DNA of 50,928 nucleotides from an uncultured Lachnospiraceae bacterium (GTDB taxonomy: Bacteria; Bacillota; Clostridia; Lachnospirales; Lachnospiraceae): NCBI GenBank assembly GCA_947382625.1, contig CANDAG010000027.1, positions 1 to 50,928 on the forward strand, read 5' to 3'. The position numbers were made by a program, and so were the translations under genes. This document shows positions 37,170-44,456 of the stretch, in pieces. Each line of letters opens with the position of its first letter. Within the stretch, counting starts at the first letter, position 1. The notes beneath the pieces were generated by a model that made no database searches, was not told the origin of the DNA, and was given only the letters and a program-made list of their open reading frames with translations.

Positions 37170-37197
37170 ATCTATTGTTGCAGATAGGGCAACAGAT

Positions 37198-37271
37198 GTG
37201 CGTTTAGCTCAGCTGGATAGAGCGTTTGGCTACGGACCAAAAGGTCGGGGGTTCGAATCCTCTAACGCACG
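37198..37271 (+). tRNA. tRNA-Arg (anticodon ACG)
   Basis: Full cloverleaf: acceptor GTGCGTT pairs with AACGCAC, D-stem GCTC/GAGC, anticodon stem TTTGG/CCAAA with loop CTACGGA (ACG), and T-loop TTCGAAT. The discriminator is G; CCA is not encoded. A34 is expected to become inosine, reading CGU/CGC/CGA. It stands alone, transcribed from its own promoter, with a terminator 15 bases downstream. Confidence 0.97.
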
Positions 37272-37285
37272 TGCTTAGTAAAGCG

Positions 37286-40614: not shown

Positions 40615-40728
40615 TTTTCTTCCTCATTTCTTATCCTGAATTTTATGTCATTCCATGACATATTCTTTTCAGATTTTATCATGCCTTTACTTATAATTCA
40701 ATATATGTAATACCCTGGCCAAATAGTT

Positions 40729-40759
40729 GTAACTATTCGGCGTTCGGTTTTATGGTTAC
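40729..40759. repeat. Copy of the GTAACTATTC hairpin repeat
   Basis: GTAACTATTCGGCGTTCGG then ATGGTTAC, matching the inverse of the hairpin at 19393-19423 at about 25 of 31 positions, with arm changes that keep pairing (G-U). It lies 30 bases before the ABC leader promoter. Confidence 0.55.
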
Positions 40760-40788
40760 TCAATATTTATAAGTCCTTGAAGAAAAAC

Positions 40789-40817
40789 TTGACAACTTGC
40801 CCTGGGTGTGATAAATT
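40789..40817 (+). promoter_or_regulatory. Promoter of the ABC transporter leader
   Basis: TTGACA (40789-40794), 17-base spacer, TAAATT (40812-40817). Start expected near 40824, giving a leader of about 300 bases before the ABC ATPase. Confidence 0.7.
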
Positions 40818-40858
40818 GTTTGGAAATTTAAACGGAACAAGTAAGGATAGGAGCAACC

Positions 40859-40936
40859 ATGTTTTATAGAAATAACGTATTATCAAATCTGATCATTATG
40901 GAGCAGCCGATTTTTCAAATTATGGCCATCACCTGA
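40859..40936 (+). CDS. Leader peptide of the ABC transporter operon
   Basis: 25 codons, MFYRNN...QIMAIT, with AGGAG 5 bases before ATG 40859. It is rich in Ile/Asn/Leu and has no drug-binding signature I recognise. Its last codons and stop (TGA 40934-40936) lie in the 5' arm of an RNA stem that governs the downstream terminator, so ribosome position on it should decide read-through. Analogous in layout to bmrB ahead of bmrCD in Bacillus, where antibiotic-slowed ribosomes permit expression. Confidence 0.7.
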   Translation: MFYRNNVLSNLIIMEQPIFQIMAIT

Positions 40937-41066
40937 AACCGGTAAGTAACCGGAAAGCGCATGGCCGTAGGATGGAAAGTCTTATTTGGCTATGCGGTGA
41001 TCAGAGAGGACTAAGAACCGCATTGCAATGTACACTTTGATGTATATGCCATGTGGTTCTTTTTTG
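40921..41066 (+). promoter_or_regulatory. Ribosome-mediated transcription attenuator
   Basis: Four mutually exclusive stems are visible. A: 40921-40929 (TATGGCCAT) with 40961-40969 (ATGGCCGTA). B: 40958-40966 (CGCATGGCC) with 40988-40996 (GGCTATGCG). C, antiterminator: 40992-40998 (ATGCGGT) with 41017-41023 (ACCGCAT). D, terminator: 41013-41023 (AAGAACCGCAT) with 41051-41061 (ATGTGGTTCTT), extended by an inner stem and followed by TTTTTT. A excludes B, B excludes C, C excludes D. A ribosome finishing the leader peptide blocks A and favours termination; a ribosome held upstream allows A and C and read-through. Confidence 0.75.
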
Positions 41067-41129
41067 TTCCATAGAAAAGTGCATCCTATAAGACTATTCT
41101 ATAAATTAATTATGAGGAGGGAATGGAAA

Positions 41130-41939
41130 ATGCATGTGATCGAGGTCGAAGGTTTGTCAAAAACCTTTCGGGTGAAGCGGAAGGAAAAAGGAATGAAGGG
41201 CAGTATTCAGGCGATCTTTAAGCCACGGACAGAGGAGATCAGGGCAGTAAAGGAAGTCTCCTTTACAGTGGACGAGGGAGAGATGCTGGCCTTTATCGGT
41301 CCTAACGGAGCGGGAAAGAGCACGACCATCAAAATGCTGACGGGTATTCTTTATCCGGACGGCGGCAATGTGAAGGTGCTGGGAATTGACCCCACAAAGA
41401 AGCGAAAGCAGCTTGCCTGTCAGATCGGAACTGTGTTCGGGCAAAAGGAGCAGCTTTGGACGCATCTGACGCCCTATGACAATTTCCGATTCTTCGGGGC
41501 CATTTATGATATACCGGATGGAGAAATAGACAGGCGTATCAAGGAGCTTTCGGAGGCCTTTGAGCTCTCCGGGTTTATCAATACTCCTGTCCGGAATCTT
41601 TCACTGGGGCAGCGTATCCGCTGTGAGATCGCCGCTTCCCTGATCCACAGGCCTAAGGTGTTGTTTCTGGATGAGCCCACCATAGGGCTGGATCCAGTGG
41701 TGAAGGAAAATATCCGTTCTCTTATCAGGCAGATGAACAGAGAATTTCATACGACGATCTTTTTGACCAGTCATGATATCGGCGATATCGAAAAGCTTTG
41801 CAGACGTGTGATCATCGTAAACTCCGGGCAGATCGTGCTGGACGATTCCATGGAGCATTTGAAATTTTCCGATGCTTCTCTGGAAAATATCATCATGAAA
41901 ATTTATCAGGAAAAGGGAGAGGAGGCGCGGGTCTTATGA
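41130..41939 (+). CDS. ABC transporter ATP-binding protein (COG4586 type)
   Basis: 269 aa. Walker A GPNGAGKSTT (about 57-66), Q-loop FGQKEQLW, signature LSLGQRIRCEIA, Walker B VLFLDEPTIGLDP and H-loop TSHD, all intact. The N-terminal insertion (VKRKEKGMKGSIQAIFKPR) before the core is typical of the COG4586 subgroup that pairs with ABC-2 permeases of the COG4587/COG3694 kind. ATG 41130 has GGAGGG about 9 bases upstream. The stop overlaps the next start (ATGA). Confidence 0.93.
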   Translation: MHVIEVEGLSKTFRVKRKEKGMKGSIQAIFKPRTEEIRAVKEVSFTVDEGEMLAFIGPNGAGKSTTIKMLTGILYPDGGNVKVLGIDPTKKRKQLACQIGTVFGQKEQLWTHLTPYDNFRFFGAIYDIPDGEIDRRIKELSEAFELSGFINTPVRNLSLGQRIRCEIAASLIHRPKVLFLDEPTIGLDPVVKENIRSLIRQMNREFHTTIFLTSHDIGDIEKLCRRVIIVNSGQIVLDDSMEHLKFSDASLENIIMKIYQEKGEEARVL

Positions 41940-42727
41940 GAAAATATGCGGTGATCTACAGGTCCGTGCTGATGGAAAATCTGCAGTATGCTGCTAATAT
42001 TGCATTGGGATTTGTCAGCTATTTTATCTTTATCTTCGTATTTATCAATCTCTGGGGATATATGTACGCCGAACCCGGAACCCGGATCGGGGGGTACACG
42101 AAGGAGCAAATGATCTGGTATGCAATGATCACGGAAATGATCTGGTTCGGTGCCAGGTCCGGCACGGTAGCCGGGCAGGCCTCATCCGATATCCGGGGCG
42201 GAAACATTGCGTATCTGATGAATAAACCTTACCACTATACCCTTTATATTCTGACCAGATATACCGGAGAATGGAGTATAAGGCTTCCTATGTATATGGT
42301 GCTTGCGGTGGCGGTAGGTATCACAATGGTAGGGCAGCTTCCGGGATTTGGGCTTCCCGCCCTGTTTGCATCGGCGGTCAGTATTTTGCTGGGGATCACC
42401 ATCAACGGGGTGTTCAAGCTTTGCATCAGCCTGATGTCCTTCTGGATCGAGGATTCCACCCCTTTCCAGTGGCTGTATGATAAGCTGATCCTGATCCTGG
42501 GAACGGTGTTTCCCATAGAAATTTTCCCAAAGGCACTGCAGCCTCTGATCAGGCTGACGCCGATCTATACCGTGTGTTATGGACCGGCAAAGCTGGTGGT
42601 GGATTTTCATGGGGATCAGTATCTTGAGATCCTTATGGCACAGCTTTTGTATCTGGCAGTGGGCTGTGGACTGATGTTCTTTGTTTATGGAAAGGGGGTT
42701 AAGAAACTGTATGTTAATGGAGGGTGA
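41936..42727 (+). CDS. ABC-2 type permease subunit 1 (COG4587 type)
   Basis: 263 aa, six membrane helices. MRKYAVIYRSVLMENLQYAA opening and the later ILGTVFPIEIFPKALQPL segment are typical of ABC-2 permeases of this three-gene system. It should form a heterodimer with the next gene's product. Start overlaps the ATPase stop. Whether the system exports a drug, peptide or lipid is unknown. Confidence 0.88.
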   Translation: MRKYAVIYRSVLMENLQYAANIALGFVSYFIFIFVFINLWGYMYAEPGTRIGGYTKEQMIWYAMITEMIWFGARSGTVAGQASSDIRGGNIAYLMNKPYHYTLYILTRYTGEWSIRLPMYMVLAVAVGITMVGQLPGFGLPALFASAVSILLGITINGVFKLCISLMSFWIEDSTPFQWLYDKLILILGTVFPIEIFPKALQPLIRLTPIYTVCYGPAKLVVDFHGDQYLEILMAQLLYLAVGCGLMFFVYGKGVKKLYVNGG

Positions 42728-42749: not shown

Positions 42750-43559
42750 ATGGGAAAGACTGATTGGAGAACGGAAGCTAAAAATCAGGTGCGGGTATGT
42801 CTGCTTTCTGTAAAATATAATATTATGAGGGAAATGATCAATAAGGTTACTTTCCTGACCAATATTTGCTTTATGATCCTGAACAATGCATCCTTTCTTG
42901 TTCAATGGGCTATTTTGTTCCGACTGAAGGAGGATATCGGGGGTTATACTTTCAAAGAGGTGATGCTGCTGTGGGGGCTTTCAGCAGGCAGCTATGGACT
43001 GTCCCATATCTTTTTTGCAAGAGTGTTTTCTTTGCCTGAGCTGATCATAAACGGAAAACTGGATGCCTATCTGGTGCTGCCTAAAAATGTATTACTGCAG
43101 GTTATGACTTCCTCCACCAGGACATCGGCCATTGGCGATCTGATTTATGGGCTGATCATTATCTGCTTCTCCGATTTGAGTTTTGGAAAGGTTCTCCTGT
43201 TTTTGCTGTTTACTGTGACCGGCGCTCTGATCATTACAGCCTTTGCGCTTTTGATGGGAAGCCTCTCCTTCTGGTTTGTCCGAATGGAGATTTTCGGGAA
43301 CCAGATGCTGAACGCACTTGTCAGCTTTGCAACCTATCCCGACGGTATCTTTAAAGGGGCTGTAAAATTCCTGCTTTACTTTATCATTCCTACAGGGATG
43401 ATGGTCTATCTGCCGGTGCATGTGATCACGGATTTTGATCTCAGAGGACTGCTTGTGGTATTTGGGTATGCACTTTTGTTGTCAGCGGTTTCTGTGACGG
43501 TGTTTTACCGGGGACTTAGAAGATATTCCTCCGGGAATCTGATGGAGGCAAGGATTTGA
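42750..43559 (+). CDS. ABC-2 type permease subunit 2 (COG3694 type)
   Basis: 269 aa, six membrane helices; the YLVLPKNVLLQVMTSSTR and SFATYPDGIFKGAVKFLL segments match the second permease of this ABC class. Start ATG 42750 chosen because AAAGGTGGA lies 4-5 bases upstream; in-frame ATGs at 42711 and 42717 would overlap the preceding gene. Last gene of the attenuated operon. Confidence 0.87.
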   Translation: MGKTDWRTEAKNQVRVCLLSVKYNIMREMINKVTFLTNICFMILNNASFLVQWAILFRLKEDIGGYTFKEVMLLWGLSAGSYGLSHIFFARVFSLPELIINGKLDAYLVLPKNVLLQVMTSSTRTSAIGDLIYGLIIICFSDLSFGKVLLFLLFTVTGALIITAFALLMGSLSFWFVRMEIFGNQMLNALVSFATYPDGIFKGAVKFLLYFIIPTGMMVYLPVHVITDFDLRGLLVVFGYALLLSAVSVTVFYRGLRRYSSGNLMEARI

Positions 43560-43585: not shown

Positions 43586-43594
43586 TGGTATAAT
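43586..43594 (+). promoter_or_regulatory. Extended -10 promoter of the pyridoxal kinase gene
   Basis: TGGTATAAT (43586-43594), 25 bases before the ATG. No convincing -35; the TG extension can compensate. The 5' leader would be only about 20 bases. Confidence 0.6.
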
Positions 43595-43619
43595 GAAGCA
43601 ATTTGGAGGCATTGAAGAA

Positions 43620-44456
43620 ATGGCACAGAGTAAACAGAAAAAAATAGCAGCCATCAATGATCTGACCGGGTTTGGCAGGTGCGCACTCACCGTGTCCTTG
43701 CCGGTGATTTCTCATATGAGGCTGCAGTGCTGTCCGGTTCTGACATCCATCTTTTCAAACCATGCAGGTTATCCGGAGTATTTTTTTGACGATTACACCG
43801 AAAGGCTGGGCGGATATCTTGCCATGTGGAAGAAGCTGGAGCTGAAATTTGACGGTATTATGTCAGGTTTTTTGGGGTCTGTGGAACAGATCAGTATGGT
43901 GGAGGAATTTGTGGAAGCCTTCCGGAAGCAGGACACTGTTGTGGTGATCGATCCTGTGATGGGTGACCACGGTAAGATCGTAGGAACCTATACGGAGGAA
44001 ATGTGCAGCGAAATGCGGAAGCTGGTTTCCCTTGCAGATATCATCACTCCTAATCTGACGGAGGGCTGTAAGCTGACGGACACACCCTACAAAGAAAAGG
44101 GATGGAAGAGAGCAGAGCTTCTTTCCATGGCGGAAAAGCTGGGGGAGATGGGACCCGGGAAGATCGTGATCACAGGGATCCCTCAGGGAGAGTTTATTGC
44201 CAACTATCTTTATCAGAAAGGGGAGGAACCGGCACTTTTTCGGACTTTTCGGGTGGGAAGTGAGCGGTGCGGCACCGGAGATATCTTCTCCGCCATCATA
44301 GCGGCAGATGCGGTAAACGGCGTGCCTTTTAAGCGCTCCGTGAGAAAGGCGTCCCTTTTTATCAAAAAGTGTATGATACGTTCTATTGAGATGGATGTGG
44401 AGCAAAAAAACGGAGTCTGCTTTGAGGAGCTGCTTCATTTGCTGGACCGCGCCTGA
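43620..44456 (+). CDS. Pyridoxal/pyridoxamine kinase family protein
   Basis: 278 aa, PfkB/ribokinase superfamily, PdxK/PdxY-like. AAINDLTGFGRCALTVSLPV, VVIDPVMGDHG, ITPNLTEG and the catalytic loop GSERCGTGDIFSA are present. Phosphorylates B6 vitamers with ATP in the salvage route, supplying PLP for enzymes such as the C-S lyase upstream. GGAGG 10 bases before ATG 43620 sets the start. Confidence 0.9.
   Translation: MAQSKQKKIAAINDLTGFGRCALTVSLPVISHMRLQCCPVLTSIFSNHAGYPEYFFDDYTERLGGYLAMWKKLELKFDGIMSGFLGSVEQISMVEEFVEAFRKQDTVVVIDPVMGDHGKIVGTYTEEMCSEMRKLVSLADIITPNLTEGCKLTDTPYKEKGWKRAELLSMAEKLGEMGPGKIVITGIPQGEFIANYLYQKGEEPALFRTFRVGSERCGTGDIFSAIIAADAVNGVPFKRSVRKASLFIKKCMIRSIEMDVEQKNGVCFEELLHLLDRA

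Follow-up and report, generated by a model that had tools for sequence, protein, structure and literature searches.

Upstream of a three-gene ABC-2 operon in a Lachnospiraceae genome lies a leader that probably acts as a ribosome-mediated transcription attenuator with several hairpin layers, a reading to which we assign a probability of roughly 0.7. The leader was studied within a stretch of 50,928 nucleotides from an uncultured Lachnospiraceae bacterium (GCA_947382625.1, contig CANDAG010000027.1), referred to as the window. Its anatomy, its conservation, its synteny with the operon, the pairing and covariation of helices P1 and P2/A and the logic of its folding are all supported in silico. 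From these we infer translation of the leader ORF (uORF), termination, read-through, pausing and an inducing signal. The leader belongs to a family of apparent translation sensors in the Lachnospiraceae that can be defined by sequence and structure.

Organization of the leader and the downstream operon

The original prediction placed a promoter, a 25-codon ORF with a ribosome site, four stems (A-D) and a T-tract terminator ahead of the ABC ATPase. All of these elements are present (Table 1), and the last codons of the uORF do lie within the first arm, that of stem A. The pairs listed for stems A-D are standard on inspection. Neighboring stems share bases (A and B at 40961-40966, B and C at 40992-40996, C and D at 41017-41023), and because they overlap pairwise in series, each stem excludes the next. 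In the last of these overlaps the 3′ arm of stem C (ACCGCAT) is contained in the 5′ arm of stem D. Stem D was absent from the output of a simple terminator scan and is visible by inspection and by folding.

Table 1. Features of the leader and of the operon behind it, in window coordinates
Feature	Position	Strand	Pairing partner, basis or remark
Promoter TTGACA - 17 nt - TG-A-TAAATT (extended -10)	40789-40817	+	promoter scan; TTGACA at 40789-40794
Shine-Dalgarno AGGAG of the leader ORF	40849-40853	+	sequence
Leader ORF (uORF), 25 codons, MFYRNNVLSNLIIMEQPIFQIMAIT	40859-40936	+	ORF list
P1 5′ arm, within uORF codons 11-13	40889-40897	+	pairs with 40996-41004; swap test
P2 5′ arm GATTTTTCA	40909-40917	+	pairs with 40973-40981
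Stem A (= P3) 5′ arm, codons 21-24	40921-40929	+	pairs with 40961-40969
Apical hairpin CCGGT-AAGTA-ACCGG	40939-40953	+	folding
Stem B 5′ arm, overlapping stem A 3′ arm	40958-40966	+	pairs with 40988-40996
Stem A (P3) 3′ arm	40961-40969	+	alignment
Inner hairpin of stem B	40968-40984	+	40968-40972 with 40980-40984; alignment
P2 3′ arm TGGAAAGTC	40973-40981	+	alignment
TTATTT, matching the NusG pause motif TTNTTT, immediately 3′ of P2	40982-40987	+	motif
Stem B 3′ arm	40988-40996	+	alignment
Stem C (antiterminator) 5′ arm ATGCGGT	40992-40998	+	pairs with 41017-41023
P1 3′ arm GGTGATCAG	40996-41004	+	alignment, swap test
Stem D, predicted intrinsic terminator, with T-tract	41013-41065	+	41013-41023 with 41051-41061, running into T6 at 41060-41065
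ABC ATPase, first gene of the operon	41130-41939	+	PF00005; best NCBIfam match drrA, below cut-off
ABC-2 permease 1	41936-42727	+	PF06182 ABC2_membrane_6
ABC-2 permease 2	42750-43559	+	PF06182

The four-stem chain is real but incomplete, as it lacked helix P2, which is an extension of stem A, and the full extent of P1, which connects the middle of the uORF with the segment 3′ of stem B. A pairing between CTGATCA (40889-40895) and TGATCAG (40998-41004) had been proposed; its seven pairs do form, as one part of the longer, conserved P1. Folding of 40829-41076 gave an energy of -81.4 kcal/mol, against a mean of -55.1 for shuffled sequences (sd 4.4; z -5.9; none of 200 shuffles reached it). Rather than the chain of four stems, the minimum-energy fold consists of one long hairpin, reaching from the middle of the uORF to just past stem B, followed by terminator D. 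A 31-base copy (90% identical) of positions 41059-41089 was also seen on the opposite strand at L002:1501-1531 (G000:C48), between genes that by eye resemble those for ribonuclease III and plsX.

The promoter scan returned 8 promoter-like sites where 5.7 were expected, which is weak evidence taken alone. Among the 57 leaders compared below, a 17-nt spacer together with TG before the -10 element was present in the best-scoring promoter-like pair of 35, a count obtained with a pair score that slightly favoured TG and without a shuffled control.

The ATPase matches many ABC ATPases among solved structures, with no pointer to a substrate, and permease 1 had no match among solved structures at E values up to 0.01. 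By eye, the window ATPase (269 aa) lacks about 65 residues near its C terminus that are present in relatives such as that of L031. A pyridoxamine kinase gene (43593-44456) was considered as a further member of the unit and rejected; it is near permease 2 at one of 26 loci with room for it, the window itself.

Distribution of the leader and its synteny with the transporter

When 98 genomes were compared at the DNA level, 11 contained the leader; all 11, among them the window's own, belong to one genus. A covariance model built from 11 leaders (R1) matched in 11 of 37 genomes of the genus (the window's own genome counted), in at least 5 of 397 genomes sampled across the family, belonging to four genera, and in at least one of 392 genomes of the order, the window's own; the family and order counts are lower bounds because the filters were stricter and eight or nine candidates were scored per genome. 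One exact pattern, scanned against genome_contigs (84,980 species genomes), returned 57 loci, all in Lachnospiraceae; their titles read Lachnospiraceae, Parablautia, Acetatifactor or Butyrivibrio, and NCBI places all three genera in this family. One of the leaders, L063, is carried by Acetatifactor muris DSM 23669. The comparisons that follow use 57 distinct leaders, namely the window, L029-L031 and 53 others, after removal of four duplicates.

An ATPase homologue was found 112-644 nt downstream of the leader at 53 of the 57 pattern loci. At the remaining four, the sequence ends too early (L036, L065 and L072) or a remnant of permease 1 is retained (L080); wherever the downstream side is visible, the leader is accompanied by the ABC-2 operon or by its remains. 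Permease 2, searched at E up to 1e-30, occurs in 10 of the 37 genomes of the genus, again counting the window's own, and these are the genomes with the leader minus one (G028) that has a decayed copy and whose contig is as long as that of L080.

Decayed operons behind a retained leader, with a truncated ATPase or a permease remnant, were seen at L034, L080 and L088, of which L034 and L088 are among the 53. L054 and L075 (the same genome as L004 and L014, G023) represent two leader-operon copies, and one permease 2 is interrupted by stop codons.

When the whole window was compared with Rfam 15 at the gathering score, only a tRNA matched; a tRNA-Arg (acg) at 37197-37272 is the sole tRNA gene found in the window. 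A search of 40700-41140 with E values up to 10 added only two chance-level matches (E 3.2 and 8.8), so that, as far as Rfam goes, the original remark that the leader was not recognised from a described family holds. A published description was not found among the top-listed papers of the open-licence PMC literature, a limited negative. Judged by its sequence, the leader represents a new family within a known class of regulators, and its additional layers would tie the response to the position of the ribosome. The exact leader pattern had no occurrence in viral_contigs and a search of plasmids in distant mode gave no match, so there is no sign of a mobile carrier in the collections searched.

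Conservation of the uORF and of the helices

An ATG-started uORF is found at the corresponding place in 57 of 57 distinct leaders, with a length of 19-41 codons and of exactly 25 in 40 of them, and a Shine-Dalgarno-like stretch of at least 3 nt precedes the chosen ATG in every case; the openness of the frame is partly due to selection, because the rule required at least 18 codons. Codons 2-13 carry a mild coding signal (pN/pS 0.75-0.76 vs. 0.81-1.47 in the other frames), and no such signal was found in codons 14-24. In L031 and L043 the ORF ends differently and the RNA pairs are retained (by eye), which argues that the end of the peptide, QIFQITVTA, is at least partly explained by the arms of P2 and stem A.

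Pairing within the leader was assessed helix by helix. For P1, the arms of each leader paired with one another at -12.99 kcal/mol, as compared with -10.55 for swapped arms, and 0 of 5000 permutations were as good (24 leaders less than 80% identical); 21 of these 24 leaders were better than the median of their own swaps. Column alignment captures P1 only partly, because its register shifts between clades; in the first 11 leaders, 87.8% of P1 cells were paired and three pairs were changed on both sides. For P2/A, 92.0% of cells were paired across 55 distinct rows and 9 cells had double changes, against 91.1% and 1.4 in shuffles. One pair of stem A is AU instead of GC in 4 of the 55 rows, and the outermost-loop pair of P2 as drawn fails in 40. 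The apical hairpin differs in sequence and length among relatives.

Stem B with its inner helix was paired in 98.4% of cells (55 distinct rows) and covaried weakly, with two double-change cells; 130 of 500 shuffles had as many pairs with double changes, and the first 11 leaders showed none. Because its arms are shared with A and C, this stem has little room to change. A simple rule for the terminator (a hairpin that uses the same arm, followed by TTTT) held in 52 of the 57 leaders and failed in five. Covariation had been put forward as a check on stems A-D, and the prediction withstood it, with a strong signal in P1 and P2/A only and a weak one in B. Since the controls are inflated by relatedness of the sequences, the covariation is read as support and not as proof.

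The hexamer immediately downstream of P2 invites comparison with a NusG pause site. The genome's NusG reads VVRNTRGVTGFVG, in which the residues NT are presumably N81 and T82 of Bacillus subtilis NusG. The motif TTNTTT lies at -11 to -6 of the paused 3′ end, according to excerpts of a published review (PMC12288461); this geometry would put a paused 3′ end at 40992 and P2, which ends at 40981, in the place expected of a pause hairpin, 11-12 nt upstream of the 3′ end. TTNTTT stands at this place in 54 of the 57 leaders; the search pattern itself fixed TTATTY, so that its constancy in the pattern-derived set is by construction. TTATTY was also present in all 12 leaders found by BLAST without the pattern, and an exact TTNTTT was missing at this place, by eye, in three divergent leaders.

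Ribosome position and the choice between helices

To model the effect of a translating ribosome, the window RNA (assumed start 40825) was cut at 41045 and folded with a ribosome placed at each codon; the footprint extended from the first base of the P site by 14 nt upstream and 16 nt downstream. This is an equilibrium calculation on a shortened RNA, not a kinetic one. With the ribosome at codons 6-16, stem A stood at 0.96-0.99, B at 0 and C at 0.96, and P2 was lost from codon 14 on. C fell to 0.80 at codon 17, and from codon 18 to the stop B was at 0.98-1.00 and C at 0. With each of four footprint sizes the switch point stayed between codons 16 and 18. When 40862-40956 was shuffled, 7 of 200 sequences behaved like the native one, with C above 0.9 for a ribosome at codon 10 and below 0.1 for one at codon 23.

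In the fold without a ribosome, C was 0.53 and P1 0.45 at the same cut, and C was 0.82 and P1 0.15 when the RNA was cut at 41030; the window's leader is not clearly off before D is made. Once D was complete, P1 was 1.00 and C 0 without a ribosome, and D won in every completed fold.

Across 56 leaders C averaged 0.40 without a ribosome; a ribosome at codons 1-3 gave a mean of 0.34, one at codons 7-14 a mean of 0.57 and one at the end a mean of 0.07. C was higher with the ribosome in the middle of the uORF than at its end in 53 of 56 leaders (exceptions L031, L039 and L068), and the mid-uORF value exceeded 0.5 in 35. It was also higher than the ribosome-free value in 44, the reverse holding in 12, and it stayed below 0.1 in 11. 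When folded freely, L013 forms B instead of P2/A. In these models, mutually exclusive terminator and antiterminator structures are chosen by the position of the ribosome, the exceptions being the 11 leaders of 56 just mentioned and L117, a leader from another family described below.

These folds suggest the following sequence of events. P2 and stem A would form first as RNA polymerase makes the leader. A ribosome that reaches the end of the uORF would break both, whereupon stem B could form and capture ATGCGGT; with ATGCGGT held in B, the 5′ arm of the terminator would be free and transcription would stop at D. A ribosome arrested at about codons 6-16 would instead cover the 5′ arm of P1 and spare stem A. 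With A kept, B would be blocked, ATGCGGT would pair with ACCGCAT as stem C, and polymerase would read through into the pump genes. In the absence of a ribosome P1 could enclose P2 and A, in competition with C, and the degree to which the operon is off would differ between leaders. In addition, NusG may cause polymerase to pause at TTATTT and so hold it in step with the ribosome. This scheme makes a precise prediction: arrest at codons 6-16 should turn the operon ON, and arrest at the end of the ORF should not.

The inducing signal can be conceived in more than one way. We entertain, tentatively and at odds well short of even, that the leader is a position-gated sensor, off both without translation and on completed translation, that fires only on arrest within about ten codons. 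The hydrophobic stretch V-L-F-[IM]-x-I-[IM] (codons 7-13) would serve as an arrest peptide in the nascent chain, responsive to a class of ribosome-binding compounds, and the NusG pause would time the decision. The state that is off without a ribosome is clearest in two divergent leaders, L107 and L108, and less clear in the window. If true, this would be an inducible export system spread through the Lachnospiraceae, with a hairpin layer beyond the descriptions of bmrB or vmlR. Whatever the signal, the compounds that trigger the leader would show what an uncharacterised ABC-2 exporter with PF06182 permeases responds to.

The same attenuator might respond, like the classical leaders of amino-acid operons, to shortage of a charged tRNA, for example that for Ile or Met at codons 10-13, and not to a ribosome-binding drug; we consider this improbable. 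Ile makes up 15% of codons 2-16, Ile or Met occupies codon 12 in 43 of 48 leaders and codon 13 in 46 of 48, and these two codons fall inside the ON window of the folding. They also coincide with the P1 arm, however, and RNA pairing may therefore explain the preference. The leaders do not preserve a run of control codons for any single amino acid, and codons 7-13 are of mixed hydrophobic character. It also counts against tRNA shortage that, to our knowledge, amino-acid control would not be expected of an ABC-2 exporter.

The wiring first proposed, in which a ribosome slowed on the last leader codons, within stem A, turns the operon ON, now appears very unlikely. Stem A does overlap these codons, and in three of the 56 leaders (L031, L034 and L075) C still exceeds 0.5 when the ribosome has reached the end position. 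In the window and in the mean of the 56 leaders, by contrast, C is at or near zero there (0 for codons 18 to stop and 0.07, respectively), as a ribosome on the last codons removes A and frees B, which captures the arm of stem C, so that D is favoured and the operon would be OFF. Of the original prediction, then, the class of mechanism, uORF-coupled attenuation before an ABC-2 operon, is upheld by conservation, synteny and covariation, and the wiring is not; slowed translation would switch the operon ON in the constrained folds only with the ribosome at about codons 6-16.

Comparison with known attenuators

The proposed ribosome-mediated attenuator, with ON positions in the middle of the uORF, has several partial parallels. 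One is bmrB-bmrCD of B. subtilis, where ribosome-targeting drugs raise read-through and a translated leader ORF together with a terminator, an antiterminator and an anti-antiterminator controls a multidrug ABC transporter (PMC4191407, in excerpt); for the present uORF, translation is predicted. With this system as a model, the idea has been raised that a ribosome-targeting drug might be the trigger and the same drug the substrate of the pump. The bmrB ORF has 53 residues and its coding region contains the terminator (same excerpt), whereas the 25-codon uORF described here ends at 40936, 77 nt before the terminator stem begins at 41013, and the terminator lies outside it. Two further helices, P1 and P2, would decide here which ribosome position is ON. 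The permeases also differ: those of the window are PF06182 proteins, and BmrCD is another exporter type.

The vmlR leader of B. subtilis combines a uORF, an anti-antiterminator, an antiterminator, a terminator and the NusG motif TTNTTT (PMC9226507, in the portion available), parts that are also predicted here, with TTATTT as a candidate for the NusG motif. According to that portion, its uORF has three codons and lies inside the anti-antiterminator hairpin, so that stalling breaks this hairpin directly, and the target is an ABC-F protein. In the present leader, stalling would instead protect an upstream hairpin, P2/A, which blocks the anti-antiterminator B.

In the Escherichia coli trp attenuator, too, which of the mutually exclusive hairpins forms depends on where the ribosome stands on a leader ORF, and finished translation terminates transcription, as summarized in part of PMC4191407. 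The leader family described here differs from it in that no run of control codons is present and a mid-ORF position would be ON. The trp leader also has fewer helices. The toiL uORF of E. coli topAI-yjhQ is likewise read as a sensor of translation stress; it affects the ribosome-binding site of topAI and, by way of this site, Rho (PMC12121999, in excerpt), whereas the output here is a predicted intrinsic terminator.

Divergent leaders on orthologous operons

Orthologues of permease 2 without an R1 match were found in three genomes of the family and in seven from other families within the order. In one of the three family genomes the contig (L109) begins too near the permease operon to show a leader. 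In the other two, L107 and L108, the ATPase is 71-72% identical and R1 is not significant (best E 0.065 and 0.26, respectively, with filters off). Both loci have a uORF, of 18 codons in L107 and 17 in L108, together with P1, P2/A, B, C and D (by eye and in folds). Under constrained folding, C in L107 was 0.22 without a ribosome, 0.97-1.00 at codons 1-11 and 0.00-0.07 from codon 12 on; in L108 it was 0.01 without a ribosome, 0.97-1.00 at codons 2-12 and 0.00-0.07 from codon 14 on. A third divergent leader, L117, has a 20-codon uORF and the same parts; its C is near 0 in all states because B dominates. The switch logic is thus the same in two of three divergent leaders.

These leaders bear on whether the RNA might be a metabolite- or drug-binding riboswitch with an incidental leader ORF, as its strongly conserved core and a long hairpin that is stable without a ribosome could suggest. 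L107 and L108 keep the uORF and the logic though their core letters largely differ; most core letters belong to two pairings, and an ATG, a Shine-Dalgarno-like stretch and an open frame occur in 57 of 57 leaders, all of which leaves a riboswitch little credence. A leaky constitutive terminator that sets a low, fixed level of expression, with upstream structure of no regulatory role, would fit the dominance of D in every completed fold and is the least credible reading of all, given that divergent lineages retain the mutually exclusive helices and that P1 and P2/A covary.

Beyond the proposed ribosome-mediated attenuator and its divergent forms, the loci L118-L122, which are more distant orthologues, carry leaders of another kind or no leader that was recognised, and the sequence of L123 stops short of the region upstream of the ATPase. 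L107, L108 and L117-L122 gave no match to Rfam at the gathering score. L120 and L121, the orthologous ABC-2 operons of two genomes from another family of the order, share a different structured leader, found from L120:2105 on, 159 nt ahead of the start of the ATPase, and from L121:2171 on, 135 nt ahead of it. It reads GAGTGTAC...AGGCA..GCTGAGC.GTACAGGCA, followed by a terminator-like hairpin, and could represent a separate RNA family on the same transporter.
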